The position numbers and the translations under genes were made by a program. This document shows, piece after piece, positions 4,727 through 37,733 of a stretch of 64,000 bases of DNA. Each line of letters begins with the position of its first letter. The stretch's first letter is position 1. The notes beneath the pieces are model-generated. The model ran no database searches and had not been told where the DNA came from. It saw only the letters and a program-made list of their open reading frames with translations. Origin of the DNA: Saccharospirillum sp. (GTDB lineage Bacteria; Pseudomonadota; Gammaproteobacteria; Pseudomonadales; Natronospirillaceae); NCBI GenBank assembly GCA_018402545.1, contig JAGYIL010000002.1, forward strand, positions 496,001 through 560,000, given 5' to 3'.

Positions 4727-4925
4727 GTGCCGACTGCCGGGTAGCTCTGATTGAGGTAGTCCGCAGCATGGACTAAAACGCCGGGAGCGTTTTAGCATGA
4801 GCATAGCGAGCCCGAAGGGTGAATCCCATGGATGGGATTCATATCCTGCGGCCTAGGCTCGAGACGTCGGACCGCCATGGACAGATCCACGCCGACCTCA
4901 ATCAGAGCTACCCGGTGGTCGGCAC
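4727..4925 (+). repeat. Dispersed multi-arm palindrome, copy A (long form)
   Basis: The outer arms at about 4727-4757 and 4895-4925 pair over 31 bp with about two mismatches (GTGCCGAC ... GGGTAGCTCTGATTGAGGT). The core holds CCGCAG...CTGCGG and a CCATGG-centred element. This long form has two extra hairpins inside the first arm: CTAAAACGC/GCGTTTTAG and GAATCCCAT/ATGGGATTC. It fills the gap between the binding protein gene and ppk1. Confidence 0.88.
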
Positions 4926-5035
4926 GAACTCGAGCCTCCAAGTCAAATCCGAACGAAAAGCGTAAATCCTGTCGTCTGTCATACCTCTGCAACAGTTTTG
5001 TCATACACTGATCGCATCTGAATCAGAGGTGGGTC

Positions 5036-7117
5036 ATGGCTGAACCGATTACGCACGAGCATTTCATCAACCGCGAGCTGTCGTTGCTGGAATTTCACGA
5101 CCGGGTGCTGTCTCAGGCACTGGACGACACCATCCCCCCGCTCGAGCGTCTGCGGTTCCTGTGCATCTCCAGCACCAACCTGGATGAATTCTTTGAAATT
5201 CGCGTTGGCGGCTTGAAAGAACGCTTTGAAGCCGGCTCCATGGTCACCGGGCCCGAAGGCATTTCACCGCGCACCCAGCTCGACCAGATCGCCAGCCGCG
5301 CTCATGATCTGGTTCAACGCCAGTACGATACCCTCAACACCACCCTGCTGCCGTTGCTGGCAGAACACGACATACGGGTGATTAAACGCGAAGACTGGAG
5401 CGAGCAGCAAACACAATGGCTGCAGTATTATTTCGAACATGAAGTCTTGCCGCTGCTGAGCCCGATCGGGCTGGACCCGGCGCATCCGTTTCCGCGCATT
5501 CTGAACAAAAGCCTTAACTTCATCGTCAAGCTCGATGGCAAAGACGCCTTTGGCCGCAACAGTGGCCAGGCCATCGTACAGTGCCCGCGCGCCCTGCCCG
5601 ACATGATCAAACTGCCGCCGGAGCAAACCCAGTCTGGCTCGAACGATTACGTCTTCATGTCGTCGATCATTCACTATTTTATGGACGAGATTTTCTTCGG
5701 CATGACGGTGATTGGTTGCTACCAGTTCCGGGTAACGCGCAATTCAGACCTCTTTGTCGATGAAGAGGAAACCGGTGACTTGCGTCGTGCCATCGAAGGC
5801 GAACTGGTGTATCGCCAGTACGGCGATGAAGTGCGCCTCGAAGTCGCCGCCAACTGCCCGGATGAACTGGTGCAGTTTTTGTTCAAGCAATTTGAAATCA
5901 GCGAAGTCGATTTATACCGCGCTGATGGCCCGGTCAACCTGAACCGGCTGGTCACACTGATCGACCAGGTCAACCGGCCGGATCTGCTTTATACCCCCTT
6001 CGATGCAAGAGTGCCGCGAGTTCTAAAACGCAAGGACACCATCTTCGACGCCATTCGCAAAGGCGACATCCTACTGCATCATCCGTTCGATTCATTCATG
6101 CCGGTGGTGGATCTGATTCGCCAGGCCGCGAAAGACCCGCAGGTGCTAACCATCAAGCAAACCCTGTATCGCACCGGGGTGAACTCGATCATCGTCGAAG
6201 CGCTGGTGTCGGCCGCCAGAGCAGGCAAGGAAGTAACGGTGATTATTGAACTGCTGGCCCGGTTCGATGAAGAGGCGAACGTGGCGCTGGCCGAGCGGTT
6301 ACAGGAATACGGCATTCACGTGGTCTACGGCATCGTGGGTTACAAGACTCACGCAAAAATGCTGCTTATTGCCCGGCGCGAAGGCGAAAAGCTGCGCCAT
6401 TACGTGCACCTGGGTACCGGCAACTATCACCCCAAAACCGCTCAAATTTATACCGATTACGGTCTGATGACCTGCAACAAGCAGATAGGCGACGATGTCT
6501 ACCGGGTCTTCCTGCAACTGACCAGCCTGGGCAAGGTGAGCAAGCTGGAGTGCTTGTATCAGTCGCCGTTCACGTTGCACAAAAACCTGATGCGCAAAAT
6601 CGATCGCGAGATCGAATTCGCCAAGGCGGGCAAACCCGCCCGGGTGCTCGCAAAAATGAATTCGCTGTATGAAGAGCAACTGGTGCGCAAGCTGTATGAA
6701 GCCAGCCAGGCCGGTGTGCAAATTGATCTGATCATTCGCGGTATTTGCCAGATCCGCCCGGGTATCAAGGGCATCTCGGAAAACATCCGGGTGCGTTCCA
6801 TTGTCGGCCGGTTCCTGGAGCATACCCGGGCGTTTTGCTTCCACAACGACAACGACCCGGAAGTCATTCTCGCCAGCGCCGACTGGATGAGCCGCAACAT
6901 GTTTCACCGCGTCGAATCCGGCTTCCCGCTGCTGAATAAAAAGTTGCGCGACAAGGTCATCAAGGATCTGGAGCTGTACATGACCGACAACCTGCAAGCC
7001 TGGGAACTCGATGCCGACGGTCGCTATCACCAGCAAAAACCCAACGGCCACGACCCCTTGTCAGCACAAATGATGCTACTCGAAGAAGCCATCGGCTCGG
7101 GCAGCTTGACGCCCTGA
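5036..7117 (+). CDS. ppk1: Polyphosphate kinase 1
   Basis: 693 residues, the usual length for PPK1, which reversibly polymerises the gamma phosphate of ATP into polyphosphate. The N-terminal domain opens with FINRELSLLEFHDRVL. The first phospholipase-D-like domain carries THAKMLLI and HYVHLGTGNYHPKTAQIYTD, where the autophosphorylated histidine corresponds to about H458. The second has FCFHNDNDPEVILASADWMSRN with a conserved His near 603. The ATG at 5036 fits the family N-terminus. Repeat copies A and B flank the gene; no ppx gene follows. Confidence 0.97.
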   Translation: MAEPITHEHFINRELSLLEFHDRVLSQALDDTIPPLERLRFLCISSTNLDEFFEIRVGGLKERFEAGSMVTGPEGISPRTQLDQIASRAHDLVQRQYDTLNTTLLPLLAEHDIRVIKREDWSEQQTQWLQYYFEHEVLPLLSPIGLDPAHPFPRILNKSLNFIVKLDGKDAFGRNSGQAIVQCPRALPDMIKLPPEQTQSGSNDYVFMSSIIHYFMDEIFFGMTVIGCYQFRVTRNSDLFVDEEETGDLRRAIEGELVYRQYGDEVRLEVAANCPDELVQFLFKQFEISEVDLYRADGPVNLNRLVTLIDQVNRPDLLYTPFDARVPRVLKRKDTIFDAIRKGDILLHHPFDSFMPVVDLIRQAAKDPQVLTIKQTLYRTGVNSIIVEALVSAARAGKEVTVIIELLARFDEEANVALAERLQEYGIHVVYGIVGYKTHAKMLLIARREGEKLRHYVHLGTGNYHPKTAQIYTDYGLMTCNKQIGDDVYRVFLQLTSLGKVSKLECLYQSPFTLHKNLMRKIDREIEFAKAGKPARVLAKMNSLYEEQLVRKLYEASQAGVQIDLIIRGICQIRPGIKGISENIRVRSIVGRFLEHTRAFCFHNDNDPEVILASADWMSRNMFHRVESGFPLLNKKLRDKVIKDLELYMTDNLQAWELDADGRYHQQKPNGHDPLSAQMMLLEEAIGSGSLTP

Positions 7118-7150
7118 GCTCGGCTCCAGTTTCCTGGTTGCCAGAAGCTC

Positions 7151-7263
7151 GTGTCAGACACCGGGTGTGCCTATCTGGGGTCGGCGTAAACCCGTCCATG
7201 GGGCCTAGACCGCAACATCCATGTTGCGGACTTCCCCAGATAGGCACACCCGGCGCCTGACAC
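7151..7263 (-). repeat. Dispersed multi-arm palindrome, copy B
   Basis: Arms at about 7151-7180 and 7234-7263 pair over 30 bp with two mismatches (stem centre GGGTGTGCCTATCTGGGG). The core is in reverse orientation: GTCGGCGTAAACCC, TCCATGGGGCC, then a perfect CCGCAACAT/ATGTTGCGG hairpin. It lies just after ppk1. Confidence 0.9.
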
Positions 7264-7331
7264 TCAGTTGGTTGCCAACTCTTAATCGTGACTGATAACT
7301 CAAGTTTCGGAGTTCGCTAGCAAAGGATGAG

Positions 7332-7442
7332 CGCCGGGTGCCAGGTAGGGCTATCGAGGGTGGTCCGCAGCAAGGATGCTGCGGTCCAGGCCCCATGGAT
7401 GGGTTTACGCCGACCCTCGATAGCCCTACCTGGTGGCCGGTG
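7332..7442 (+). repeat. Dispersed multi-arm palindrome, copy C, nested in a wider inverted repeat
   Basis: The arms share the stem CCAGGTAGGGCTATCGAGGGT in inverted orientation around the standard core (CCGCAGCA/TGCTGCGG hairpin and CCCCATGGATGGG). An additional outer inverted repeat, CAAGTTTCGGAGTTCGC near 7302-7318 against GCGAACTCCGAAACTTG near 7469-7485, encloses the whole element. It sits between the convergent ppk1 and deoxyinosine glycosylase genes. Confidence 0.9.
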
Positions 7443-7487
7443 TGGGCGACTGGCAACATAGCCAACCGCGAACTCCGAAACTTGGGT

Positions 7488-8003
7488 TTATAAATAGTCG
7501 AGTAGTATCCGCCACTGGTCTTTCTTTTGTTCAAAACTGAGGCTGGCGTGTGCCGGGCTGGTTGAGGGTAATTTGTGCAGAGGCAGGGCCTGGTCTGTGG
7601 TGCTCAGTGTTGGCAGGACTTTCTTGCGATAGTTTTCGTACGCCGCTGTGCCATTGCACAGTACTGCCTGTGTTTGTGGGTGGCGGGCAAACCAGGCGGC
7701 AAAATCATTCGGGACGATACTGGTTTTTACGATGTCGGCATCGAGGCTTGAGGGTCGTTCGCATTGGTAGAGGGCATCCCATAAGCCAATGTGATGGTGG
7801 GTCAAGTGGGTGAGCCGTTGCTCGTAGGGCAGTGTTGCATCAAAGCCCAGCCAGTGGCCGAGTATTGGCCAGAAAGCGTTGCGTGGGTGGGCATAATACT
7901 GGTGGGCGTTTAGCGATGCCTTGCCCGGCATTGAACCTATGATAAGCACTCTGGCCTGTGTCGGTTCAACCGGGGCAAAGCTGTTGATGGTGACGCCGGT
8001 CAT
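7488..8003 (-). CDS. DNA-deoxyinosine glycosylase, UDG superfamily family 6 type
   Basis: 171 residues. The opening SFAPVEPTQARVLIIGSMPG, followed by KASLNAHQYYAHPRNAFWPI, matches the hypoxanthine-DNA glycosylase family, whose members excise deoxyinosine formed by adenine deamination. Later landmarks are IGLWDAL, the VLCNGTAAYENY segment and a C-terminal LPSTSPAHA, equivalent to the HPSPL-like motif of the superfamily. It starts one base after the uvrD stop, so the two are almost certainly cotranscribed and probably share LexA control. Confidence 0.88.
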   Translation of the reverse strand: MTGVTINSFAPVEPTQARVLIIGSMPGKASLNAHQYYAHPRNAFWPILGHWLGFDATLPYEQRLTHLTHHHIGLWDALYQCERPSSLDADIVKTSIVPNDFAAWFARHPQTQAVLCNGTAAYENYRKKVLPTLSTTDQALPLHKLPSTSPAHASLSFEQKKDQWRILLDYL

Positions 8004-8004
8004 C

Positions 8005-10170
8005 TCAGATCGCTTCGAGTTTGGCGTACTGCATCATCAGCCAGCGTTCGCTTCCGTCGTCGAAGGAGACTTGTACCCGGGCATGGGCGCCGCCGCCTTC
8101 GGCGTTAATTAATGTGCCCTCGCCGAACATGGGGTGCAGCACGCGCTGGCCCAGGCTGAAGCCGGCATCGTCCATGGCCATATCCTGTTGCAGGCCGAAA
8201 TTAACCGGCCGGCTGACGGTTGAACGCAAGCGCACTTCGGTGAGTAATTCCTGCGGAATTTCGCGTACAAATCGTGACAGAGAATTGAAGGTTTCCGAGC
8301 CGTAGAGTCGGCGGCTTTCAGCGTAGGTGAGGGTGAGAATCTGACGCGCGCGGGTGATGCCTACGTAGGCCAGTCGTCGTTCTTCCTGCAGGCCGGAGGC
8401 GTCGTCCATCGACATCTTGTGCGGGAACAGCCCTTCTTCCAGGCCGACCAGAAATACATGATCGAATTCCAGGCCTTTGGCACTGTGCAGTGTCATTAGG
8501 TTCACGCTGTCTTCGAACTCATCGGCCTGGCTGTCGCCGGCATCGAGTGAGGCTTCGCCGAGAAATTGCGCGAGCAGTGCAATTGGGGTGTCGGCTTCGT
8601 CGTTGCCGGCAAAACTCTGGGCGGCGGAGACCAGTTCCTGCAGGTTTTCTACCCGGGCCCGGCCCTTTTCACCCTTTTCTTTTTCGTGGTGTTCAATTAA
8701 CCCCGAAGCAGCGGTCACGTCCTTGACCATGTCGCCGAGCTCTTCTTTGTCGGTGACAATTTTTTCAAGATCGGCAATCAGCAGCATAAAGTCTTCGAGT
8801 GCATTGGCGGCGCGCTTGGGCAGTACTGAATTTTCCAGTGCCGAGAGGCAGGCTTCCCACAATGAAAAGCCCTGGTCGCGCGCCAGGACTCGCAGGGTTT
8901 CGATGGTTTTGTTGCCAATGCCGCGCGTCGGTACGTTGATGATGCGTTCAATTGCGGCGTCGTCTTGCCGGTTCAGTACCAACCGCAAATAGGCCACTGC
9001 GTTTTTAACTTCCAGCCGTTCATAGAAACGCTGGCCGCCGTATATGCGGTAGGGAATCTGGCTGTGAATCAGTGCTTCTTCCAATACCCGGCTCTGGGCG
9101 TTGGAGCGGTAGAGCATGGCGATGGTGTTGGCGTTGGTGCCGTTTTCCATCAGCCGGTTGATTTCGTCGGCAACGTAACGGGCTTCGTCCTGTTCGTTGA
9201 AGGCAGCATACAGGCGAATCGGGTCGCCACGGTCGCCTTCGGTCCAGAGGCTTTTGCCGAGCCTTGCCGGGTTGTTGGCGATGACGGCGTTGGCGGCATC
9301 GAGAATGGTGGCGGTTGAACGGTAGTTTTGTTCCAGCCGTACCATGTGGGTGCCGGGGAAATCCTGATTGAAGGTCTGAATGGTTTCGACCTTGGCACCG
9401 CGCCAGCCGTAAATGGACTGATCGTCATCACCGACGATGGTGAGGCTGAGTTTGTCGCCAGCCAGTACCCGCAGCCAGGCGTACTGAATGGTGTTGATGT
9501 CCTGAAACTCATCGACCAGCAGGTGGGTAAACCGCTGCTGGTAGTTGGCCAGCAAGTCCGGGTTGTTGAGCCAGAGTTCGTGCGCGCGCAACAGCAGCTC
9601 GCCAAAGTCGACCAGGCCACTGCGCTGGCAGATTTCTTCGTAACGCAGGTAGATGTTTTTCAGTGTTTCCTGGAACCAGTCGCCATGGGTTTGTACGAAC
9701 TCGGCGCGGATGCCTTCGTCTTTCTGGCCGTTGATGAACCACTGTACCTGCTTGGGTTGCACCCGCTCGTCAGTGATGCCCAGATCGACCATCAGGCGTT
9801 TGACCAGCCGCAGCTGATCGTCGCTGTCCATGACCTGAAAGTTATCGGGCAGGTGGGCCAGCTTGTTGTGGTGTTTCAGCAGGCGGTGCGCCAGGCCGTG
9901 AAAGGTGCCGATCCACAGGCTGTTCGAGGGGGTTTCCAGCAACTCTTCAACCCGGCCGCGCATTTCCCGGGCGGCCTTGTTGGTAAAGGTGACGGCCAGC
10001 ACGCTGTAGGGCGAGGCCAGACCGGCGGCAATCAGCCAGCCAATACGGTGCGTCAGTACCCGGGTCTTGCCGCTGCCGGCACCCGCCAGCACCAGCAGAT
10101 GCTGGGCATCGCTCTCCACAGCCTGGCGTTGTTCGGGGTTAAGTTGGTCTAGCAGGGTATTCAGGCTCAT
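8005..10170 (-). CDS. uvrD: DNA helicase II, UvrD
   Basis: 721 residues from the ATG at 10170 (LNTLLDQLNPEQRQAV). It is an SF1A 3'-5' helicase acting in nucleotide excision and mismatch repair. Motifs in order: Q motif, Walker A AGAGSGKT, AVTFTNKAAREMR (Ia), VDEFQDIN (II), GDDDQSIYGWRGA (III), QNYRST (IV), TLHSAKGLEFDHVFLVGLEEG (V) and YVGITRARQ (VI). The C-terminus has the Tudor-like segment found in UvrD/PcrA. A GTG at 10182 would add four residues, but it overlaps the LexA box, so I prefer the ATG. Confidence 0.96.
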   Translation of the reverse strand: MSLNTLLDQLNPEQRQAVESDAQHLLVLAGAGSGKTRVLTHRIGWLIAAGLASPYSVLAVTFTNKAAREMRGRVEELLETPSNSLWIGTFHGLAHRLLKHHNKLAHLPDNFQVMDSDDQLRLVKRLMVDLGITDERVQPKQVQWFINGQKDEGIRAEFVQTHGDWFQETLKNIYLRYEEICQRSGLVDFGELLLRAHELWLNNPDLLANYQQRFTHLLVDEFQDINTIQYAWLRVLAGDKLSLTIVGDDDQSIYGWRGAKVETIQTFNQDFPGTHMVRLEQNYRSTATILDAANAVIANNPARLGKSLWTEGDRGDPIRLYAAFNEQDEARYVADEINRLMENGTNANTIAMLYRSNAQSRVLEEALIHSQIPYRIYGGQRFYERLEVKNAVAYLRLVLNRQDDAAIERIINVPTRGIGNKTIETLRVLARDQGFSLWEACLSALENSVLPKRAANALEDFMLLIADLEKIVTDKEELGDMVKDVTAASGLIEHHEKEKGEKGRARVENLQELVSAAQSFAGNDEADTPIALLAQFLGEASLDAGDSQADEFEDSVNLMTLHSAKGLEFDHVFLVGLEEGLFPHKMSMDDASGLQEERRLAYVGITRARQILTLTYAESRRLYGSETFNSLSRFVREIPQELLTEVRLRSTVSRPVNFGLQQDMAMDDAGFSLGQRVLHPMFGEGTLINAEGGGAHARVQVSFDDGSERWLMMQYAKLEAI

Positions 10171-10181
10171 CGGCAAGGTCA

Positions 10182-10197
10182 CTGTACAAAAAAACAG
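10182..10197 (-). promoter_or_regulatory. LexA (SOS) box upstream of uvrD
   Basis: The 16-bp sequence has perfect CTGT and ACAG half-sites separated by eight mostly A/T bases, the gammaproteobacterial LexA consensus. It lies 11 bp upstream of the uvrD ATG at 10170. In E. coli uvrD is a known SOS gene. The divergent gene starts at 10344, so control is most likely directed at uvrD and the glycosylase gene behind it. Confidence 0.88.
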
Positions 10198-10343
10198 GGG
10201 TAGTGTACCAGAAGGTATTGGCCTTTGTGGATGGGCATAGTCTCCTTACCCCTTTAGTCGAAGACCCTGCCGGTTTGTGCCGTTTCGCCCTGTGACTGGT
10301 GATGACTGGTCTATACTCTGCTGCAAATCAGTCAGGATTGATC

Positions 10344-13073: not shown

Positions 13074-13340
13074 GCCTTTCAGCCCATTGCGATCTTTTGG
13101 GCTTAAAATACCATACCAATATGGGCATACAAACTGCATGGGCAAGGCTCGGTAGCGGGTCGTCCCCTGTTCGATGAAGACATTGACTGGCGTCACTGAA
13201 TTGCCATACGAAGCGGATAATATGGCGCCCGGTTCGGTGTTATCAGGCCTTTCCCGAAATGGATGCTGCCCGAAACCACACCCTTGTTTCCATTACGATC
13301 AACAATAAGAAAACGGCAGTCGCCCTAAGGAGTTCAACTT

Positions 13341-13532: not shown

Positions 13533-13574
13533 ACGATCTGAGTTCACGCCGGCAATACCGGCCTGAAACAGCCA

Positions 13575-13615
13575 CTGGCAAAAGGCAGACCCGTCACCCG
13601 CCTGCTTTTTGCCAG
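13575..13615 (+). terminator. Rho-independent terminator after the small PA3496-like gene
   Basis: CTGGCAAAAGGCAG pairs with CTGCTTTTTGCCAG across an 11-13 base loop, giving a long hairpin with a U-rich 3' arm. A smaller GCCGG/CCGGC hairpin precedes it at about 13548-13562. Confidence 0.65.
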
Positions 13616-13736
13616 CGGTTATCCTCTCTGGTAGGGCTGACGAGCGCCCGTGCCACGGGCCTTGTAAACTAACACTTCCCAAAGCCGGGCTATTCAAAAC
13701 AGCCTGGCCTGATGTTACCCAATCCTACACCGCGTG

Positions 13737-17335: not shown

Positions 17336-17366
17336 TGGTTTAAGCCTGAAATAAGCAACAAATTAA

Positions 17367-17479
17367 GTGCCAGGTGCCGGGTAGGCTTATCCGGGGTAGT
17401 CCGCAGCAGGGATGCTGCGGTCTAGGCCCCATGGAAGGGTTCACGCCGACCCCGGATAAGCCTACCCGGTGACTGGCAC
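17367..17479 (+). repeat. Dispersed multi-arm palindrome, copy D
   Basis: Arms at 17367-17397 and 17449-17479 share the inverted stem CCGGGTAGGCTTATCCGGGGT, with a few mismatches near the ends. The core is standard: CCGCAGCA..TGCTGCGG hairpin, GTCTAGGCCCCATGG and ACGCCGACC. It lies between two convergent genes. Confidence 0.92.
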
Positions 17480-17524
17480 GAGCGATGGGCAAAATAGTAA
17501 AACGGACCGCCGAATTAAGTGGTT

Positions 17525-20623: not shown

Positions 20624-20676
20624 TAAGTTTTGGTGGTTGGTTCAAGAACGTTGAATTGAAATTGATGGCAGAATTC

Positions 20677-20813
20677 GTGACCAGAGCCGGGTGGGGCCAC
20701 CCGGGGTCGTGCGGAATGCCGCCCACTCAATCCTTCCATGGAGACTAGACCGCAACATCCATGTTGCGGACTACCCCGGGAGACCCCACCCGGCTCCGGT
20801 CACTGGCGAATCT
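20677..20813 (-). repeat. Dispersed multi-arm palindrome, copy E
   Basis: Arms at about 20677-20707 and 20783-20813 pair with roughly four mismatches (GTGACC, GCCGGGTGGGG, CCCGGGGT). The core is reversed, with a perfect CCGCAACAT/ATGTTGCGG hairpin, but its other half (CGTGCGGAATGCCGCCCACTCAATCC) differs from the usual sequence. The rest of 20624-21026 shows no gene; an AT-rich stretch at 20820-20960 may carry the promoter of the next gene. Confidence 0.85.
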
Positions 20814-21695: not shown

Positions 21696-21823
21696 GGTTG
21701 GCTACGATGGTTGCTTTGCTTCCGGTGGTTAAAATAAACCTTGTAGCAGAAATCGTAACCGGCACTGGTCGTTGAGTTAAGATTGTTTTGAATATGGCCT
21801 GGTGAAGAAGACTGATCAGACCA

Positions 21824-21936
21824 GCGTGGGTATCGGGTGCGCCTCCAGTGGGGCGTCGGTCCCCATGGATGGGGACCGTCGAGCTTACACGGATGTACTT
21901 GCAGCGACCCGCTGGAGGCGTACCCGGTGCCCACGC
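21824..21936 (+). repeat. Dispersed multi-arm palindrome, copy F (divergent core)
   Basis: Arms at about 21824-21854 and 21906-21936 pair with about four mismatches (GCGTGGG, CGGGTGCGCCTCCAG). The core keeps a GGTCCCCATGGATGGGGACC hairpin but lacks the usual CCGCAACAT hairpin, having GTCGAGCTTACACGGATGTAC instead. The rest of 21696-22156 has no supported gene. Confidence 0.8.
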
Positions 21937-22156
21937 GGCCGACTGCCCCCAGGCTAACTCAACAGGGACTTGATTTAACCCCAGGGTCCCTGACCGCCTC
22001 CCAGCCCAACTCAACGGCAAACAGGAGCAAGCCGTCAACAATACTCAAACCACCCGCCTGATTAGCAACCAGAAAGACGAGCTGACGTGACAGCCGTTTA
22101 TTCTGTGCCCGGCTCGGCCTACACTCGTGGCAAATCCGCTTTGTACAGGTTTTCAA

Positions 22157-27511: not shown

Positions 27512-27548
27512 TTCACTCATAGGGTAGATTGACGAGGCAAAGAGCCAA

Positions 27549-27732
27549 GTGCCCGCTGCCGGGTAGGTCTGTCCGGGGGAGTCCGCAACAGGGACTAAAA
27601 CGCCTGGAGCGTTTTAGCATGAGCGCAGCGAGCCCGGAGGGTGAATCCCATGGAAGGGATTCATATCATGCGGTCTAGGCCCCATGGATGGGTTCACGCC
27701 GACCCCGGACAGACCTACCCGGTGGCGGGCAC
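27549..27732 (+). repeat. Dispersed multi-arm palindrome, copy G (long form)
   Basis: Arms at about 27549-27579 and 27702-27732 share the inverted stem CCGGGTAGGTCTGTCCGGGG. It carries the same two-hairpin insert as copies A and H (CTAAAACGC/GCGTTTTAG and GAATCCCAT..GGGATTC). It lies between convergent fbpC and fbpB. The right flank GGCACGAACTC is the same as for copy A. Confidence 0.9.
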
Positions 27733-27779
27733 GAACTCTAGGCACCGAAGTAAATTCAACAAGGGAAAAAGGTGCTACC

Positions 27780-29486: not shown

Positions 29487-29529
29487 TAATGCCTCTGTTA
29501 CAGATAAAAGGAGTGGTCTGGTAGCGGAC

Positions 29530-29557
29530 AAACAAAAACGGCAGCCGAAGCTGCCGT
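29530..29557 (-). terminator. Intrinsic terminator or attenuator between fbpA and fbpB
   Basis: On the minus strand ACGGCAGC-TTCG-GCTGCCGT forms a perfect 8-bp stem with a UUCG tetraloop followed by TTTTTGTTTG. It lies 29 bp after the fbpA stop and before fbpB, so it probably lowers permease expression relative to the binding protein. Confidence 0.85.
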
Positions 29558-29585
29558 GTGCAAGTTTACTGCAAGGCCGGGGTGC

Positions 29586-30632: not shown

Positions 30633-30663
30633 TCTTGATCTCCATTGCGAAAGGCTTTCAACA

Positions 30664-30678
30664 TGATAAGTATTCTCA
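30664..30678 (-). promoter_or_regulatory. Fur box upstream of fbpA
   Basis: On the minus strand TGAGAATACTTATCA matches the 7-1-7 Fur consensus at 12 of 14 positions. It is placed 32 bp before the fbpA start, where a repressor would block transcription. Confidence 0.75.
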
Positions 30679-30850
30679 GTTGTGTGTGAGTCGCTGTCAA
30701 TAGACGCAATCGCCGAAAGTCACGAATAAGGGGTTTTAAGGGGGGTCCTGGCAAATGTCTGATGGCATGGTGAATCCCAAGCAGGCTGCTAGACTGGCTG
30801 GTGTGCTGCCTTAGCCCGATCAGCAAGCCCACTACGGGCAGGAGTGACCG

Positions 30851-31279
30851 ATGATCCGACACGCCACCAATACCGATTTCCACGAGCTGGCCGAGCTATA
30901 CCAGGATGCCAGCCTGATCGCCCACCCCTTTATCGACCCCGACTACATCGCCCGGGATATGCGTCACCTGCGCGAGCACCGGCTACCGCTGGAGCAGGCG
31001 TTTCTGTGGGAGCGACAGGGTGACATTGCCGGGTACATTGCGCTGGAGGGCAAACGGATTAATGGTTTGTTCATCAAGGTGGAGCATCAGCGCAAGGGCA
31101 TCGGCCGGGAGCTGGTCGAGCACGTGAAGCAGCTACACGACGAGTTGCGGGTCAAGGTGTTTCAGGAGAACTATCAGGCGCAGCGATTCTATTTCGCGAT
31201 GGGGTTCGAGATTGTTCCCGAAGCGGACGCTCCGGAAGACGGGCCACACGCCCAATATTGCATGCGCTGGCCCGTTTAG
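30851..31279 (+). CDS. GNAT family N-acetyltransferase
   Basis: 142 residues. IRHATNTDFHELAELYQDAS is a typical N-terminus. INGLFIKVEHQRKGIGRELV contains the acetyl-CoA motif (Q/RxxGxG/A as RKGIGR), and VFQENYQAQRFYFAMGFEIV closes the fold. It stands alone between the iron operon and repeat copy H. Substrate unknown. Confidence 0.87.
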   Translation: MIRHATNTDFHELAELYQDASLIAHPFIDPDYIARDMRHLREHRLPLEQAFLWERQGDIAGYIALEGKRINGLFIKVEHQRKGIGRELVEHVKQLHDELRVKVFQENYQAQRFYFAMGFEIVPEADAPEDGPHAQYCMRWPV

Positions 31280-31296
31280 ATGAGTGGGCATAACCC

Positions 31297-31490
31297 GCGG
31301 CAGCTACCAGTGGTACCTCTGCAGGGTCGGCGTGAATCCGTCCATGGAGCCTAGGCCGCATGATATGAATCCCATCCATGGGATTCCCCCTACGGGCTCG
31401 CTGCGCTCATGCTAAAACGCTCCCGGCGTTTTAGTCCCTGTTGCGGCCTACCCTGCAGAGGCACCACTGGCATCTGCCGCTCACATTTTG
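31297..31490 (-). repeat. Dispersed multi-arm palindrome, copy H (long form, reversed)
   Basis: Arms at about 31297-31327 and 31460-31490 pair with about four mismatches (CCAGTGGT, CCTCTGCAGGGT). A weaker outer repeat (GAGTGGGCA near 31282, complementary to the sequence near 31505) extends the palindrome. The two-hairpin insert is present in reverse orientation. It lies between two convergent genes. The stem sequence is the most divergent of the family. Confidence 0.87.
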
Positions 31491-31505
31491 CTCACTCCTA
31501 CTACA

Positions 31506-33281
31506 TTACTGCTGTTGCACCTGATACACGCTCAATGTGCCGCTAACTTCGTTGGCAACCAGCAACAGGGCAACGCCCGACGGGCTCTGGCTGGCAGGTA
31601 TGAATTGCATGCCTTCCGGGGCCAGGTCGCCGGCTTGTGCGGCCGTTGCGCTGGTTACTTCACCGTCTTCAGTGGCGACGTCGGCGTCGTAATTGCGGTG
31701 GTTGGTGTAGGCCACAAACTCAACCGCTTCCGGGTCGGTGATGTCGAAGGTCATGAAACCGCCCATGCGCTCCAGGCCGATAAAAGCCAGGGTGCGGTCA
31801 CCCAATTGTCCCAGTGCCAGTCCTTCGGGCTCGGGCCCTTTGTTGTCGCTGCGGTCATCGATGGCCAGTTCGTTATCGGTGGTGTTGAAGTAATCGGGGA
31901 AACGATCCGCCGTGATGCGTTCTATCAGATCACCGGAGTCGTACACCAGGGCGCCGATGTCGTCGAAAATCGCGAATGAACGGGCACCGTAGGCGTAAAC
32001 GGCTTCATAGACGCCATCGCCGTCGCGGTCACCCAGTGTTTTATTGATTTTCAGGTCAGCGATGTCGTCGAAACCGGTCAGCGAGCTATCCAGTTGTACG
32101 TCGCCGATTTCAGTTTCGTCGGTGTACACCAGGCAGCCGTCGCCTTCATCCCATTCGTATTGCCCCAAGGGCAGCGGGCCCCTGCATTGATCTTCGGTTT
32201 CAGCGTCTGAAAAATACTCGCGTGCGTCGCCTTCGTTGGCTGTGACCACGTAGTTGCGGCCGTTAACACTGTAGCTAGCGATGCTGTCTGGCTGATAGAT
32301 ACCGAACAAGCCGGTATAAGTCGACAGGGCGGCTTGTTCATCGTTCTTGTTGGCATCCAGGCTGTTTTCTACGAGTCCGTGATCCTTGAAGCCCAGCGGG
32401 AATAGCCCGGTGATGCTGGGGGTTTCGTTCAGACTGATTCTCGCCAGGGCGTTGTTTTCCTGCAGCGCAACAAAGGCGGTGCGGCTGTCGGGCGTGACGG
32501 TAATGTATTCCGGTTCCAGGTCTTGCGACAGACGCGTGTAGGCCGGGTCCGGGTTGTTGCCGGTGATGATATCGGGATGGTAGTTGTCGTCAAAGCCATT
32601 GAAGTTCAGCTGAATCGCCAGATCATCCGGGATGCCCCGGGTAATCGGAATGACAGAGATGCTGCCTTCGGGGTCGATCAGGTAGTCTCCGCTGGGCTCG
32701 CCTTCGTTGGCGACCAGTACAAAGCGGCCATCGGGTGAGAAGGTCACCATGTCGGGCAAGGCTCCGGCCATCACGCCTTTGACGAAGTCGGTGTCGCCCT
32801 GATCGTTGAGGCGATAAAACAGAATGGCACCCTTATCGACCTTGTTTTCATTCTCGACGGCAATAGCCAGCAAGTCACCGTGCACGGCTAGGCTGTTGGC
32901 TCCGCCGATCATGATCTTGCGCTGGCCCATAAAGGGGTCTGCCACCCATACCTGCTCCGGTACCGCATCGCTGCGATCGGCCAGATTGCTTAGGGTGTAG
33001 GGGTTAACCGCTGGCTCAGACAGCAGGTTGCTGATGCGTACGGCATTCACGCGGCCGGTTGCGCCGTTGGTCAGATAGGCATAGCCCGATGCACGGTGAT
33101 AGGCGACGATTTCGGCGGCACTTTCATCGAAAATGCCGCTGGTGTAGCGGCCTACCATATCGATTTGTACGCTGGGGTCGCCGGCGGGCAAGGCGCGGTC
33201 GGCAGACTGGGTCGGGTTAGTGCTGCAGGCGCTGAGCGTCAGGCCGGCAGCCAGGCTTAAAGCAAAGGGTTTTAGGGTCAT
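31506..33281 (-). CDS. Choice-of-anchor I family lipoprotein (beta-propeller-like)
   Basis: 591 residues from the ATG at 33281, which has AGGA eight bases upstream and opens a lipoprotein signal (LSLAAGLTLSAC, lipobox LSAC). The body contains repeated beta-propeller-like blades and the segments VVTANEGDAREYFSDAE, KINKTLGDRDGDGVYEAVYA and KGPEPEGLALGQLGDRTLAF, landmarks of choice-of-anchor I proteins. Members are exported and some are annotated as alkaline phosphatases or surface glycoproteins, without firm activity. It is probably tethered to a membrane here. Confidence 0.87.
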   Translation of the reverse strand: MTLKPFALSLAAGLTLSACSTNPTQSADRALPAGDPSVQIDMVGRYTSGIFDESAAEIVAYHRASGYAYLTNGATGRVNAVRISNLLSEPAVNPYTLSNLADRSDAVPEQVWVADPFMGQRKIMIGGANSLAVHGDLLAIAVENENKVDKGAILFYRLNDQGDTDFVKGVMAGALPDMVTFSPDGRFVLVANEGEPSGDYLIDPEGSISVIPITRGIPDDLAIQLNFNGFDDNYHPDIITGNNPDPAYTRLSQDLEPEYITVTPDSRTAFVALQENNALARISLNETPSITGLFPLGFKDHGLVENSLDANKNDEQAALSTYTGLFGIYQPDSIASYSVNGRNYVVTANEGDAREYFSDAETEDQCRGPLPLGQYEWDEGDGCLVYTDETEIGDVQLDSSLTGFDDIADLKINKTLGDRDGDGVYEAVYAYGARSFAIFDDIGALVYDSGDLIERITADRFPDYFNTTDNELAIDDRSDNKGPEPEGLALGQLGDRTLAFIGLERMGGFMTFDITDPEAVEFVAYTNHRNYDADVATEDGEVTSATAAQAGDLAPEGMQFIPASQSPSGVALLLVANEVSGTLSVYQVQQQ

Positions 33282-33505
33282 TTCGGCATCCTGTCGTTGG
33301 TCGGTGAGTGTTGTTATACCCAAGCACGCTACGGAGCCTGTGTGACAGCCTGACGACAAAATGGTGACAGCAAAACGACAAGCGGCTTTCATGCGGATGA
33401 CATTGGTTCTGGCTTTGGTTAGTCTTTCCCGATCCAAGTCGGGTGCGGTCTGACATAAACCCCAAAACACGCGACGATCAAGACACGACTCTTCAGAGGT
33501 GAACT

Positions 33506-34120
33506 GTGACCTGGGCAACCTGGCTGGCGGTGGTAAGTATTTGCATGTTGGGCGCGATGTCGCCTGGCCCTTCGCTGGCGGTGGTGCTCAAGCAAACCCT
33601 GGCGGGCGGGCGCTCCAACGGCATTGTTGTGGCGCTGACGCACGGTCTGGGCATTGGCCTCTACGCGTTACTGAGTATTTTTGGCCTGGCAGCACTAATC
33701 ACCGCCTCACCGGTCGCCTTCACCGCCTTGCAATGGAGCGGTGCACTTTACCTGGCCTGGCTCGGCGTTAAGGGGCTGCGCGCGCGGGCCAACCCCGATG
33801 CCAAATTACCGGATGTACCTACCACCGCCAGCGCCGCCCGGGATGGTTTTCTGGTGGTGTTCCTGAACCCCAAGGTCGCGGTGTTCTTCATTGCCCTGTT
33901 CAGTCAGGTTGTCGGTGCCGATACCTCAGTGCTGGCCAAGCTGGGTTACGCCGCCACCGCCATGGTGATTGACGGCGGCTGGTACCTGGTGGTGGCCTGG
34001 TTGTTCTCGACGCCCGCCTGGCTGGACCGTCTGAAGCGGCATTCAGTCTGGTTCGAGCGGGTATTCGGAGTCATTCTGGTAGGGCTGGCAGGCCGGCTGG
34101 TGGTGTCGATTCTGAAGTAG
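33506..34120 (+). CDS. LysE/RhtB family amino acid exporter
   Basis: 204 residues starting at a GTG with AGAGGTG just upstream. The sequence opens with a first helix followed by SPGPSLAVVLKQTLAGGRSNG, the typical LysE signature, and has about six transmembrane segments (ITASPVAFTALQWSGALYLAWLG in part). Family members export lysine, homoserine or threonine. The substrate cannot be assigned. A hairpin at 34149-34172 separates it from the convergent MBL gene. Confidence 0.9.
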   Translation: MTWATWLAVVSICMLGAMSPGPSLAVVLKQTLAGGRSNGIVVALTHGLGIGLYALLSIFGLAALITASPVAFTALQWSGALYLAWLGVKGLRARANPDAKLPDVPTTASAARDGFLVVFLNPKVAVFFIALFSQVVGADTSVLAKLGYAATAMVIDGGWYLVVAWLFSTPAWLDRLKRHSVWFERVFGVILVGLAGRLVVSILK

Positions 34121-34148
34121 CTGAAATACGGCATTAGAACTAACCTTC

Positions 34149-34172
34149 CCGGGTCAGATCAAACTGACCCGG
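34149..34172. terminator. Symmetric hairpin between the convergent LysE and MBL genes
   Basis: CCGGGTCAG and CTGACCCGG form a perfect 9-bp stem with a six-base loop. There is no clear U-run on either side, so it may be a bidirectional or Rho-assisted terminator. Confidence 0.5.
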
Positions 34173-34187
34173 CAGTGTCGCCCTCTC

Positions 34188-35033
34188 TCAAACAGCAACC
34201 GTCTCGTCGGCAACGGAAAACTTTCCTTTCTCATCCTTGATCACCCGGCCCGCAGCAATGTTGGGGTCGTGGGTGAAGAACAGCCGTCCGTTGCGTCTGG
34301 CCAGGTCGGACAGCAGGCGTCGTTTCTCGTCGATCAGCGCTTCCGGAAAGCGGTCGTAGCCCATGGTGATGGGCAGGTGTACCCAGGCTTTGCCGGGAAT
34401 CAGGTCGGCGGCAAACACCAGGGGGCCGTCATCGGTCTGAATTTCGGTCAGTAACATGCCCGGTGTGTGGCCATCGCTGTAATGAAAGCGATAAGCATCG
34501 CCCAGGCGTTTCGACCGGGTACCGTTGATTCGCTCAAGCCGGCCCGAGGCTTCCAGCAGGGCGGGTAACTCGGGAATAAACGATGCCTTGTCTCGCGGGT
34601 GTGGCTGAATCGCCCGCTGCCACGCCTGTTCACCCACAATAAACCAGGCGTTTTTGAACACCAGCTGCGGCGCTTTGCCTTCCTGCCAGGCACTGAGCAG
34701 CCCACCGGCGTGATCGAAATGCAGGTGAGATAACACCACGATGTCGATGTCATCGGGCCCCAGGCCAAGGCCGGCCAGGGCGTCCAGCAGGCAATGCTGC
34801 GCCTCCTGCACCCCATAGCGCTCACGCAGGTCTGGCGGGAAAAATGCGCCGACACCGGTTTCAAACAGGATGTTTCGATCTGCTTCCTGCACCAGCAGGC
34901 AGCGACAGTTGAGATCGATCCGGTTCTGGTCATCGCTGGGGAGCCAGCGCTCCCACAAGGCCTTGGGGGCGTTGCCAAACATGGCTCCGCCATCCAGTTT
35001 CTGGGAGTTTCCGAGCAGGGCGTGCAGTTTCAT
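34188..35033 (-). CDS. MBL-fold metallo-hydrolase
   Basis: 281 residues. The zinc-binding motif is [13 protein letters not shown] (HxHxDH). Later ligands are supplied by [10 protein letters not shown] and [13 protein letters not shown], and a C-terminal FFTHDPN. This arrangement fits the quorum-quenching lactonase-like and AttM-like subgroup as well as general MBL hydrolases. Activity is not determined. It has no signal peptide and is transcribed alone. Confidence 0.87.
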
Positions 35034-35736
35034 TCTGGTCTCCTGTGGCAGGCATGACCTTACCTTAGGCGTTCGACGGCCCGCTTCACAGGTCAGCGAC
35101 CACTGAGAAACCCGTTTGCAATGTCACGACGGCGTTACGAGACGAGCGAAAGCGCTGACCCGGGCGTTTTGATGGTGGAAGGTGCACGGTGAGGGATTAT
35201 AAAACAGACAGACACAGCAAAATCGCCCGGAGGGGGCGACTCGATCAATACAGTGAATCGATGCAGATAATACACGTGATGATCACGTAGGTTAGCAAAT
35301 TAGCTAAGCCGGCCCTGTTGTTGTTTTTAGGAGGCCTTAAATAAAAACTGTGCCCTTGTTATTGTTTTTGGGCGGGCACGTATCGTTCTTATCTCACCCT
35401 GTTTTTGTTTTTGTTTGTGGGTGTCTTTATCGTTGTGCGTAGATGATTGCAGTCTGCGTGCCAGTTTTAAAAAGTACTTTAAAAACAACAACTTAGAAAA
35501 TACCGTTCAATATGTGACCAGTCAGCAGTCTGGCTAACATCGCTTTACACCATGCTGACGTGTGTATAGGTAACACTTGGGGAGTGTCAGTAACACTTTT
35601 AGAATCCCGTTCGATCACTTTACCCGCGCGGGTTACCTAACATTACAGTATGCGCAGTGAATTTGACGCCATGACCGCAGGAAGGCGGTACAATCTTGGC
35701 TTGCGGTGGCTGTGTTTGCTTTTCTGCCATGGGTCC
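35034..35736. other. Long AT-rich intergenic region without a supported gene
   Basis: No convincing coding frame was found. The stretch has T-rich runs (TTTTTGTTTTTGTTT near 35400-35420), a small TCGCCC/GGGCGA hairpin near 35222-35238, a palindrome at 35274-35288 and a repeated GTAACACTT near 35568-35600. It could carry a small RNA, or regulatory sites for the MBL and HlyU genes. Neither is shown. Confidence 0.5.
35274..35288. promoter_or_regulatory. Perfect 15-bp palindrome, possible operator
   Basis: ACGTGAT and ATCACGT are exact inverted 7-mers around a single G. It lies about 240 bp upstream of the MBL gene start in an otherwise empty region. No regulator can be named. Confidence 0.4.
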
Positions 35737-35849
35737 GTACTGGCCGCCGGGTGGGCCTATCCGGGGGCGGCATGAACCCGTCCATGGGGCCTAGACTTCG
35801 GCATCCATGCCTCAGACTACCCCGGATAGGCCCACCCGGCAGCCAGCAC
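35737..35849 (-). repeat. Dispersed multi-arm palindrome, copy I
   Basis: Arms at about 35737-35767 and 35819-35849 share the inverted stem CCGGGTGGGCCTATCCGGGG. The core is reversed, with CATGAACCCGTCCATGGGGCC. Its second hairpin is changed to TTCGGCATCCATGCCTCAG. It ends 86 bp before the hlyU-like gene. Confidence 0.9.
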
Positions 35850-35934
35850 TCGGTCTGTCGCAAAGTTTATGCAGAGTTGATTGAACTCAGTCGCCATAAC
35901 AATAAACGCACGACTGCGGCAGCAGTAAGGAAAA

Positions 35935-36219
35935 ATGATGTTTGGATGGTTAAAGAAAGCAATGGCCGGTGGGCCGGCAAGCCCGCGGGAAGTGAAGGGT
36001 GAAACGATTGAGTACAAAGGGTACCAGGTGACACCAACGCCGATTCCCGAAGGCGGTCAGTACCGGGTTAGCGGCATCATTGTTAAGCCGGGCGAGCCGG
36101 AACAGCGCCATACCTTTATTCGGTCTGACCTGGTCGCCGGTGAAGATGAAGCCTGTAATTTTACGCTGGTGAAGGCGCGATTGATGATTGACCAGTTGGG
36201 TGATCGGATCTTTGATTAA
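35935..36219 (+). CDS. HlyU family protein
   Basis: 94 residues matching the Pfam HlyU family. IEYKGYQVTPTPIPEGGQYR is followed by VSGIIVKPG, HTFIRSDLVAGEDEA and a conserved C-terminal KARLMIDQLGDRIF. Despite the name, this family is distinct from the winged-helix HlyU of Vibrio and has no DNA-binding motif I can see. Two ATG codons in tandem (35935, 35938) follow AAGGA. It converges with hslO; the hairpin at 36226-36253 separates them. Confidence 0.85.
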   Translation: MMFGWLKKAMAGGPASPREVKGETIEYKGYQVTPTPIPEGGQYRVSGIIVKPGEPEQRHTFIRSDLVAGEDEACNFTLVKARLMIDQLGDRIFD

Positions 36220-36225
36220 AGATCG

Positions 36226-36253
36226 TCAGCCCCGGCGCAGTGACCGGGGCTGA
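36226..36253. terminator. Bidirectional terminator-like hairpin between hlyU-like gene and hslO
   Basis: TCAGCCCCGG and CCGGGGCTGA form a perfect 10-bp stem around an eight-base loop, between the two convergent stop codons. Confidence 0.65.
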
Positions 36254-36257
36254 ATAC

Positions 36258-37130
36258 TCAGTTCAACTGTTGCTTGTATGACTCGAACAGTTCGGTAACG
36301 TCGTCGGGCCCGAACTGGTAGTGCTGGTGGCAGAACTGGCAGTCGCTGCGTATCTCCCCCTGCTCGGCTACAACGGCCTGGGCTTCCTCTTCACCCAGCA
36401 TCAGAATCGCATTGGCGCAGCGTTCGCGGGTACAGGTGCATTCAAACTCCAGAGGGCGGGCCTCGTAGACACGAACTTCTTCTTCGTGGAACAGACGCTG
36501 CAGCACCGTGGTGTTGTCGAGCGACAGCATCTCGTCGGCCGTTAACGTTTCCGCCAGATGAACCACCCGGTTCCAGGCGTCGTCGTCCACTTCCAGGCTG
36601 CCTTCGCTGGCCGAATGAGGCATCGCTTGCAGCAGCAGGCCGGTCGCGATCTGCTGGTCGGCGAACAGCCATACCCGGGTGCGAATCTGCTCGGACTGGC
36701 GAAAGTAATCTTCCAGCGCGTGGCTCAGGCTGTGGTCGCCGTCGTTGATCGACACGATGCCCTGGTAGCGCTTGCCGTTTTTCGGCTCAATGGTGATCGC
36801 CAACTGCCCGTTACCGAGCAGTGCCTGGTCGGCGATGAAATCATCGTTGTACTGGGCAATGGCACGCAGAGCCCTGTTATCCCGGCATTCGGCCATCAGC
36901 ATACGCACCTGGCCAGCGCCCCGAACCTGCAGGCTCAGAGTGCCATCGAATTTCAGGGTGTCGCTCAGTAACGCCACCGCCGCCATGAACTCCCCCAGCA
37001 ACAGGCGCACCGGCTCGGGGTAATTGTGCTTGGCCAGAACTTCCTGATAACTGCGCTGTAACCCGGTAATTTCACCGCGAATGTGTGTATGGTCGAACAA
37101 AAAGCGTTGGGTCTGATCGGGGTTGCTCAT
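36258..37130 (-). CDS. hslO: Redox-regulated holdase chaperone Hsp33
   Basis: 290 residues, the usual Hsp33 length. The N-terminal core (RFLFDHTHIRGEITGLQRSY and LLGEFMAAVALLSDTLKFDG) is followed by the zinc-binding redox switch: ECTCTRERCA supplies the CxC pair and DCQFCHQHYQF the CxxC pair. Oxidation releases zinc and activates holdase function in the cytoplasm. It follows hslR on the same strand by 39 bp, the conserved heat-shock pair. Confidence 0.96.
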   Translation of the reverse strand: MSNPDQTQRFLFDHTHIRGEITGLQRSYQEVLAKHNYPEPVRLLLGEFMAAVALLSDTLKFDGTLSLQVRGAGQVRMLMAECRDNRALRAIAQYNDDFIADQALLGNGQLAITIEPKNGKRYQGIVSINDGDHSLSHALEDYFRQSEQIRTRVWLFADQQIATGLLLQAMPHSASEGSLEVDDDAWNRVVHLAETLTADEMLSLDNTTVLQRLFHEEEVRVYEARPLEFECTCTRERCANAILMLGEEEAQAVVAEQGEIRSDCQFCHQHYQFGPDDVTELFESYKQQLN

Positions 37131-37169
37131 GCAGGCCTCGTCATGGGCCAGGGCGGTGTAACTATTGCC

Positions 37170-37562
37170 CTAGGCGTTAAAGGAATCTTTCATTTTACGG
37201 ATATCGCGCCGGTCTTTCTTGCTCGGCTTGTGATCAGGCGCGGCCTGGCCCGCATTCTGGGCTTTACGCTGCGCCGCCATGGCCAGCCGTTTCTCGACTG
37301 ACTCTTCCGTCTCGCGATACAGCAACTGCGCTTCCGGCGCGCCACGGCGCTTGTCACTGAGCGCCAGCACTTCAACGGTTTTTTCGTCGAAGCCCAGCCG
37401 CATGCGCAGCATGGCACCCACTTCAACATTGCGACTCGGCTTGGCACGGGCGCCATCGTAATGCACCTTGCCGCCTTCAATGGCGTCTTTCGCCAGGCCG
37501 CGCGTTTTGAAGAAGCGCGCAGCCCAGAGCCATTTGTCGAGACGTACGGGAGTATCGGTCAT
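37170..37562 (-). CDS. hslR: Ribosome-associated heat shock protein Hsp15
   Basis: 130 residues from the ATG at 37562, behind GAGAGAGG. A longer in-frame start at 37613 would add 17 residues without family support. The S4 RNA-binding domain reads VRLDKWLWAARFFKTRGLAK and GKVHYDG, and the tail is basic (KPSKKDRRDIRKMKDSF). Hsp15 binds 50S subunits that carry nascent chains after heat shock. It is transcribed with hslO. Repeat copy J lies just upstream, between it and cysQ. Confidence 0.93.
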   Translation of the reverse strand: MTDTPVRLDKWLWAARFFKTRGLAKDAIEGGKVHYDGARAKPSRNVEVGAMLRMRLGFDEKTVEVLALSDKRRGAPEAQLLYRETEESVEKRLAMAAQRKAQNAGQAAPDHKPSKKDRRDIRKMKDSFNA

Positions 37563-37620
37563 AACCTCTCTCAATAGATCTTTAAGGTCAGTGGTCGCTT
37601 TAAAGTAAGCCACATATCGA

Positions 37621-37733
37621 GTGCGGGGCTGTGGGTTAGCCTGTCCAGGGTAGTCCGCAACATGGATGTTGCGGTCTAGGCCCCATGGACGGGTCTACGC
37701 CGACCCTGGACAGGCTAACCCACTGCCGTGCAC
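37621..37733 (+). repeat. Dispersed multi-arm palindrome, copy J
   Basis: Arms at 37621-37651 and 37703-37733 share the inverted stem GTGGGTTAGCCTGTCCAGGGT. The core is canonical, with a perfect CCGCAACAT/ATGTTGCGG hairpin and CCCCATGGACGGG. It lies between the divergent hslR and cysQ starts, where it could affect both promoters. Confidence 0.92.

Follow-up and report, generated by a model that had tools for sequence, protein, structure and literature searches.

The 64,000 nucleotide stretch of the marine bacterium Saccharospirillum sp. considered here (the window; contig JAGYIL010000002.1, positions 496,001 to 560,000) carries ten copies of a dispersed palindromic repeat, the two arms of which covary beyond chance in a manner that implies selection for a folded strand. 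The element is mobile, as is seen from empty sites, flips, random orientation, and terminal inverted repeats on a minority of the copies. The interpretation favoured here, at a probability of about 0.55, is that this is a non-autonomous element resembling the miniature inverted-repeat transposable elements (MITEs) with a body of the type of the Rfam family TwoAYGGAY, that the strand displaying two GGA hairpin tips (the GGA strand) passes through a stage as a folded RNA to which CsrA binds, and that the arms are re-matched by DNA copying. In what follows, G000 is the 4.25 Mb genome from which the window comes, and other labels beginning with G or L denote other genomes and fetched loci.

Structure and covariation of the repeat

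All ten places hold the same structure, which folds on one strand: an outer stem of about 30 bp closes a junction that carries hairpin A (CCGCARCA-NGGA-TGYTGCGG) and hairpin B (CCCCATGGANGGG...CGCC). The inner arms occur in three forms, a short form of about 119 nt, a form of about 133 nt in which the arm-B side is different, and a long form of about 190–205 nt in which arm A is some 70 nt longer (the copies starting near 4727, 27549, and 31297). By the GGA strand, six copies are on the forward strand of the window and four on the reverse. In some copies, such as that near 7332, all of this is enclosed by one more stem, which has the behaviour of a terminal inverted repeat.

A covariance model, R1, made from five of the short window copies recovered all ten, with E-values from 1.8e-29 to 1.8e-16; the remaining eight of its 18 hits in the window are the opposite strand of eight copies already found. 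The shared architecture described in a first-pass annotation of the window was thereby recovered, while its list of shared motifs was too inclusive, since ACGCCGAC is missing from the copies near 20677, 21824, and 35737, and that near 21824 also has different inner hairpins. With ten copies in about 33 kb the density is one per 3–4 kb, rather than the one per 6 kb first given.

For comparison of the arms, 138 matches from G000, over 39 sources of which some were chosen for their density, were reduced to 117 unique copies by removal of opposite-strand second hits and identical sequences. The same removals, together with that of lengths below 100 nt, left 45 copies from other genera out of 52 matches over 35 loci. 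Among the 117 copies, Watson-Crick and G.U pairs together account for 96.7% of the outer stem when both arms are taken from one copy, against 76.9% when they are taken from different copies, which bears out the original observation that the arms of each copy match and that changes in one are compensated in the other. In the variable middle of the stem, Watson-Crick pairs make up 93.8% within and 56.7% between these copies. For the 45 copies of other genera, the stems of which share little sequence, the Watson-Crick proportions in the outer stem are 89.8% and 30.2%.

The covariation score of the own-genome alignment (A3; 134 distinct rows, 18 of them opposite-strand) is 0.486, against 0.164 for shuffles, of which none in 500 reach it, and that of the other-genera alignment (A5; 49 distinct rows, about five opposite-strand) is 0.959, against 0.194 when shuffled, both alignments being fitted to the model and the kinship of the copies inflating the scores. 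Slide controls in which relatedness is retained score 0.046 to 0.155. Two-sided changes are found at all 46 pairs in A5 and at 44 of the 46 in A3.

Strand asymmetry of the mismatches

When the outer stems of G000 are read on the GGA strand, there are 256 G.U pairs and 12 A.C, 45 G.A and 13 U.C, and 28 G.G and 2 C.C. Removal of six recurrent positions leaves G.U at 69 and A.C at 11, and in the outer stems of other genera the counts are 75 and 12. Selection of copies by the spacing of the tips alone, independently of the model, gives G.U to A.C ratios of 141:9 in G000 and 32:3 in Saccharospirillum impatiens DSM 12546, a named relative with a polyphosphate kinase that is 97% identical; motif pairs with a stem numbered 65 of 76 and 16 of 20, respectively. 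This selection is unsuited to distant genomes, where the stem stood at fixed offsets in 1 of 37 motif pairs, and was confined to these two.

The asymmetry implies strand-specific selection on a folded RNA (or single-stranded DNA), and points away from a cruciform of double-stranded DNA. Of the initial proposal of selection for a folded RNA or cruciform DNA, it is the folded strand that is supported.

Hairpin tips and relationship to TwoAYGGAY

The tips have the form CA-N-GGA-N-G. The motif CANGGANG is present twice in 98 of the 117 own-genome copies, once in 18, and three times in one, with none on the opposite strand of any of the 117; variation in the tips is confined to the N positions, the commonest tip being CATGGATG. 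Among the 45 copies of other genera, 25 have the motif twice, 19 once, and one three times, and a GGA occupies loop region A in 43 of them and loop region B in all 45. Csr/Rsm decoy small RNAs are few-copy small RNA genes, and the element differs from them in being present in at least 150 copies with no promoter-like excess. It is like them (CsrB, CsrC, and RsmX/Y/Z) in having GGA in hairpin loops and at least two sites per molecule, as these RNAs are described in passages of PMC7652899 and PMC4353343.

The tips coincide with the published RsmA/CsrA site, given as A/U-CANGGANG-U/A for Rsm in a passage of PMC4353343. According to part of PMC7652899, RsmE contacts an ANGGAN hexaloop, the consensus from SELEX (systematic evolution of ligands by exponential enrichment) is RUACARGGAUGU, and for two sites a separation of more than 18 nt is optimal. 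In the short form, the tips are at model positions 44–51 and 67–74, 23 nt apart, which fits both an ANGGAN hexaloop closed by a C-G pair and that spacing.

No named family of this form had been recognised in the first-pass annotation. The core does overlap that of TwoAYGGAY (RF01731), with some copies above and some below the cut-off of that family. A genome search with RF01731 gave a match in 13 of 38 genomes (8 above the cut-off) and in none of 14 control genomes. Matches that coincide with R1 copies exceed the cut-off of 43 at G010:C1:438389 (43.5 bits) and G014:C90:94 (49.6 bits), and fall below it at C5:223437 of the own genome (38.6 bits) and at G018:C7:73875 (39.7 bits). The own genome has three RF01731 matches, and the one above the cut-off is at another locus (C6:287664–287784, 49.6 bits). 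The matches at L060 and L063 are below the cut-off, in a range where unrelated long-hairpin families score alike and where a match by itself is weak evidence.

TwoAYGGAY was proposed in 2014 as a candidate CsrA-binding small RNA, with an external stem that is "not well conserved" in the words of one passage of PMC4333381, and it is entered in a table of PMC2864571 among the probable RNAs, with a cis-regulatory role judged improbable. The likeness lies in two hairpins with AYGGAY-type loops on an external stem. The difference is that the repeat described here is dispersed and mobile, in part with terminal inverted repeats, and has a stem that is hypervariable and yet matches itself. In the open literature searched, supplements aside, the parts that treat TwoAYGGAY made no mention of it as dispersed or mobile, or of a self-matching hypervariable stem. 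It may tentatively be suggested that TwoAYGGAY RNAs are the working part of widespread bacterial mobile elements, with the CsrA-binding RNA as cargo or as part of the mobility, and with the folded GGA strand needed for spread. Such a need would explain strand selection that is independent of gene orientation, and re-copying of each arm from the other would let the stem sequence drift freely.

A sub-form of hairpin A (for example at L027 2737–2855) has adjacent G.A and A.G mismatches, present in 15 of the 117 copies at each of two pairs, and resembles the tandem-GA feature given for TwoAYGGAY in a passage of PMC4333381. At L182 (G001:C53:1–3500) there are near-tandem copies of a second TwoAYGGAY-like core, in a larger repeat with an GGGGACTGCCCTCCTAC motif that resembles RAYT-type repeats.

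Two patterns of change within one stem

The stems are nearly unique to each copy, 105 being distinct among 106 complete copies. In these 106, G.U pairs number 192 in pairs 1–11, 4 in pairs 12–16, 35 in pairs 17–21, and 2 in pairs 22–30 of the outer stem. Comparison of nearest-neighbour copies over pairs 22–30 finds 44 double Watson-Crick changes, of which 17 are transversions, against a single one-sided change to G.U; one-sided A.C changes number 2 and other one-sided changes 20. This pattern fits arm-to-arm DNA copying better than slow compensation via wobbles, and arm-to-arm conversion, one of the options raised at the outset, probably adds to the strand-specific selection.

Between collinear flanks, mostly 77–89% identical, 38 of 107 own-genome copies could be placed in the S. 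impatiens DNA examined. At 11 of these places, with arms identical at 49 or more of 60 positions, the stems differ by 15 double Watson-Crick changes, 20 one-sided G.U, 3 one-sided A.C, and 11 other one-sided changes; this cut is the 95th percentile of random pairs, so that one or two of the 11 may be replacements. With the stricter cut of 52 of 60, 8 places show 7 double Watson-Crick, 14 G.U, 3 A.C, and 9 other one-sided changes.

The changes in pairs 22–30, with the lack of a G.U bias in the inner hairpins, are also what would be seen if these were palindromic mobile repeats acting purely as DNA, their arms homogenised by template switching or hairpin-templated repair and their GGA hairpins incidental or recognised as DNA. 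Interiors do flip in place, cores are inverted relative to their flanks in two copies from G104 and two from G242 (L191, L200, L227, and L228; read by eye), and the palindromes sometimes reach into the host flank, all of which favour such an explanation. Correction of this kind should be strand-blind, yet the outer-stem ratios of G.U to A.C are 256:12 and 75:12, and even between genera with little stem sequence in common the GGA tips stay on one strand. A purely DNA-level origin of the pattern is considered unlikely.

Mobility of the element

Nine of the 38 places mapped in S. impatiens have no R1 copy there. Six of the nine are empty (gap of 73 nt or less), with gaps of 6, 11, 37, 64, 64, and 73 nt against 206–319 nt, and at the other three there is longer sequence. 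Of 27 single-slot filled places, the orientation is the same in 21 and opposite in 6, a count that leaves out two second-copy rows (k=33 and 52) and an extra row (k=84), all of which are opposite.

The outermost stem of some copies consists of (TA)ACTCAAGTTTCGGAGTTCGC and its complement. There are 105 such terminal ends in the own genome at up to 2 mismatches, against 0 for a control pattern, and many are in facing pairs. In the examined DNA of two species there are 37 paired units, which measure 183–199 bp, with longer forms of 252–299 bp and a few of 83–107 bp. The loci L126, L127, and L128 hold miniature units of 86–107 nt with the same ends and without the two-hairpin core, L127 keeping a short outer stem closed by ATT.

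Complete units with different ends are present in the distant genome G242, where five of the eight fetched copies are 234 bp units with an 18 bp inverted-repeat end, CACTGCTGTCCCGTTAAC, unlike that of the own genome. Three of these five have 8–9 bp direct repeats outside, one of them mismatched (read by eye). The exact pattern of the G242 unit ends is found in none of the viral contigs, and in plasmids there is just a 41 nt match within the query in two records. Of ten copies fetched from G104, seven carry yet another end, of 30 nt, and since the sequence outside is also repeated the true ends are unsure. Next to the G104 units (flanks of L191–L198) stands an additional hairpin, its tip reading GGATGC, several nested repeats thus sharing the loop type. 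A palindromic host target was considered and rejected as a general rule, inverted flank matches being only slightly in excess.

In its size of about 100–200 bp, intergenic location, base-pairing, and empty and filled sites, the element is like the bacterial MITEs ERIC, Correia/NEMIS, and YPAL, most of which have terminal inverted repeats, as they are set out in parts of PMC2229807. It differs in that its arms vary between copies and yet match within them, in the CsrA-type tips on one strand, and in not being A+T-rich. Arm covariation of this kind is not described for MITEs in those parts of PMC2229807, where "compensat" has 0 occurrences.

Search for a transposase

REP/RAYT systems are dispersed intergenic palindromes, as is this element, and the first-pass annotation had proposed that a RAYT-like partner be sought. 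The outcome was negative. The sole RAYT-like gene found in the genome, a Y1 gene encoding a 147 aa protein (G000:C1:1871362; L001), stands among unrelated REP-like repeats of its own on both sides, with no copy of the family within about 1.5 kb either side, and it is in being adjoined by other repeats that it sets the present element apart from REP/RAYT. Among 20 Y1 loci there is one weak R1 match (L083, 33.4 bits). There are 55 copies in G015 and 43 in G021 (39 and 30 at a stricter cut), and neither genome has a Y1 hit. A RAYT partner was rejected on these observations, with the reservation that the copy-rich congeners are Y1-positive: within the genus, four Y1-positive genomes have at least 95 copies each, and two Y1-negative genomes have 12 and 5.

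The GGA strand might instead fold as single-stranded DNA and be the substrate of a strand-specific recombinase, in the manner of IS200/IS605 or REP/RAYT. This would account for a strand asymmetry independent of gene orientation and for conserved tips and recurrent wobble positions, and it is in keeping with the unclear target duplication in the own genus and the Y1-positive state of the copy-rich congeners. The repeats around the RAYT-like gene and the lack of an adjoining copy speak against it, as do the copy-rich, Y1-free G015 and G021 and the match of the loop to an RNA-binding consensus. The direct repeats of 8–9 bp at three of the five complete G242 units are moreover of the kind made by DDE transposases. 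A single-stranded DNA element is accordingly held to be distinctly improbable.

The search for an autonomous relative with the same ends was confined to those sites of the own genome that were listed, and none was found there. At one place in the own genome two ends face each other at a distance of 1.3 kb, with an IS481-type transposase gene between them. This was rejected as the autonomous form, since the insertion sequence has other ends and has itself interrupted a copy, between its two hairpins A and B, where CCTAGG stands on either side of it (L231 595–1744; G000:C1:2714.4–2715.5 kb). In the window itself, a gene with HTH_38 and rve domains (IS30-like) lies between 24 bp inverted repeats at 53785–54865; these ends differ from those of the repeat, and the IS30-like element was rejected as their donor.

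Distribution and genomic placement

Scanning of the genome and its relatives with a covariance model, as had been recommended initially, was productive. Scoring in the own genome covered 150 of 1256 candidates, every one of which matched, so that there are at least 150 copies; an estimate of about 275 is extrapolated from the window and four neighbouring, non-random stretches, where 12 copies had been listed and 22 were found. All five congeners examined have copies, 12 in G002, 5 in G005, and at least 95 in each of the other three. With the own genome counted, there is a match in 19 of 38 genomes of a family and order sample and in 29 of 229 genomes (25 of 196 genera) of a class-wide sample. 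At least 2 matches are present in 22 of the 28 other matching genomes of the latter, for each of which at most 15 candidates were scored.

By a simple gene caller, none of 138 copies examined is inside a predicted gene, and 7 of the 10 window copies are within 60 nt of a predicted gene boundary. Such placement might suggest a host element that acts in cis at mRNA ends as a terminator or stabiliser, like REP or ERIC. The orientation of the copies to genes is random, however, and the fold bias is independent of it; there are empty places and flips between species; and no T-run is seen directly 3' of the stem in the flank profile, on which ground an intrinsic terminator was also rejected. A role at the 3' ends of host genes is therefore thought very unlikely.

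Own-genome copies less than 300 nt apart are head-to-head, with GGA strands outward, in 16 of 16 cases (25 loci), and close neighbours among 149 matches from nine other genomes comprise 17 head-to-head, 10 tandem, and 0 tail-to-tail pairs. Carriage by phages or plasmids was considered and rejected, a single 201 nt query having no match in a viral or a plasmid collection. In one viral contig (IMG/VR; L179 6229–6255) one similar core is present, and after it comes an inverted repeat resembling a terminator.

Copies in the window

Copy 1 (4724..4928, forward strand; R1 80.8 bits, and by its fold) is of the long form with about 70 nt added to arm A, and the collinear place in S. impatiens has no copy and a gap of 73 nt (k=87). 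Counterparts of its arm A (4752–4866) are numerous in G001, G003, and G004, most of them 90–96% identical, and the outer stems that surround them vary. Copy 2 (7148..7266, reverse; 137.1 bits), of the short form, is head-to-head with copy 3. Its ortholog in S. impatiens is a counter-example to compensation, with one arm identical and three uncompensated changes in the other (k=0).

Copy 3 (7328..7446, forward; 129.7 bits), also short, is inside an intact terminal-inverted-repeat unit, and the site is empty in S. impatiens. The whole unit, AACTCAAGTTTCGGAGTTCGC ... GCGAACTCCGAAACTTGGGTT, is placed at 7297..7488 (forward) from its inverted repeat and its absence at the orthologous place, its exact ends being inferred. 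The left terminal inverted repeat (7299..7316, forward) has 0 mismatches to CTCAAGTTTCGGAGTTCG and the right (7469..7486, reverse) has 1. The tips of hairpin A (CAAGGATG, 7371..7378) and hairpin B (CATGGATG, 7394..7401), both on the forward strand, are CsrA-type sites as judged by sequence and motif counts.

Copy 4 (17364..17482, forward; 135.3 bits) is short, and its place in S. impatiens has a long-form copy with a different, largely self-matching stem. Copy 5 (20674..20806, reverse; 93.6 bits) is of the 133 nt form; in S. impatiens the core is conserved and the outer stem is different, with the inner part of the stem self-matching. Copy 6 (21821..21939, forward; 82.4 bits) is the divergent form, with a double change from T-A to A-T at the same locus in S. 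impatiens (k=84). The long form is found again in copies 7 (27546..27735, forward; 109.2 bits) and 8 (31294..31483, reverse; 87.8 bits), and the short form in copies 9 (35734..35852, reverse) and 10 (37618..37736, forward), both at 129.7 bits. Beyond 38 kb the window has none of the ten copies, and there is a low-G+C stretch at 52–56 kb.

The case for and against a possible CsrA-binding mobile element

In the interpretation preferred here, the long stalk would present two GGA hairpins resembling the two-site target of the CsrA/RsmA dimer. The GGA strand would at some stage be a folded RNA to which CsrA binds, and copies that fold on this strand would have been kept or would have spread. Arm-to-arm DNA copying, by hairpin-templated repair or template switching, would re-match the arms after mutation and could also invert the interior. 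A likely consequence would be a genome-wide set of potential CsrA-binding sites that titrate CsrA, or that act locally where a copy is transcribed. As a function for the host, titration of CsrA is plausible.

Several observations weigh against this interpretation. Relative to tandem neighbours the orientation of the copies is random, G000 having 32 that are sense against 29 antisense and S. impatiens 9 against 11, and the G.U to A.C ratio is equally biased in sense (93:2) and antisense (91:6) copies, as well as in convergent (64:4) and divergent (27:2) ones. Because the bias is equal and the orientation random, selection seems not to act via read-through transcripts of the neighbours, and this route was ruled out. 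A promoter of the element's own in the left flank was likewise rejected, the promoter-like signal there not being above that of shuffled flanks. G.U intermediates are nearly lacking from the changes in the inner third of the stem (pairs 22–30), which ordinary RNA selection alone does not predict. The inner hairpins have no G.U bias (G.U to A.C of 4:2 in the own genome and 4:8 in other genera) and a G.G to C.C ratio of 0:10 in the own genome, and in the own-genome outer stem A.A stands at 3 against 13 for U.U. The pooled copies are related by descent, so that p-values are overstated.

With regard to CsrA itself, a very stable structure may disfavour its binding, according to a passage of PMC7652899, and csrA is present in 38 of 38 genomes examined and does not track the element; it is a precondition that discriminates nothing. 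The motif CANGGANG is on the opposite strand in 2 of the 45 copies of other genera. The window gives no Rfam match at the gathering score, and no window copy is listed for RF01731 up to an E-value of 10, which led to rejection of the window copies as ordinary Rfam members. With regard to mobility, no transposase was found for the element. Only 27 of 137 copies have a clear outermost stem, with a score of at least 22, which is reached by 3.4% of mismatched controls. No clear flanking inverted repeat is seen in 22 copies from G120, G126, and G223. Target duplications in the own genus are not clear, at 3 in 37 where 1.1 would be expected.

Implications

A predicted RNA family of unknown function here gains a genomic identity, as a repeat that moves, flips, and amplifies, and its many natural stem variants offer material on which to test CsrA binding and selection at the RNA level. 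Since a single stem bears both signatures, in different parts, the element is also a clear natural system in which compensatory selection can be told apart from conversion of one DNA arm by the other. If CsrA does bind, this one genome would hold well over 100 mobile decoy sites, and a mobile element could rewire a global post-transcriptional regulator.

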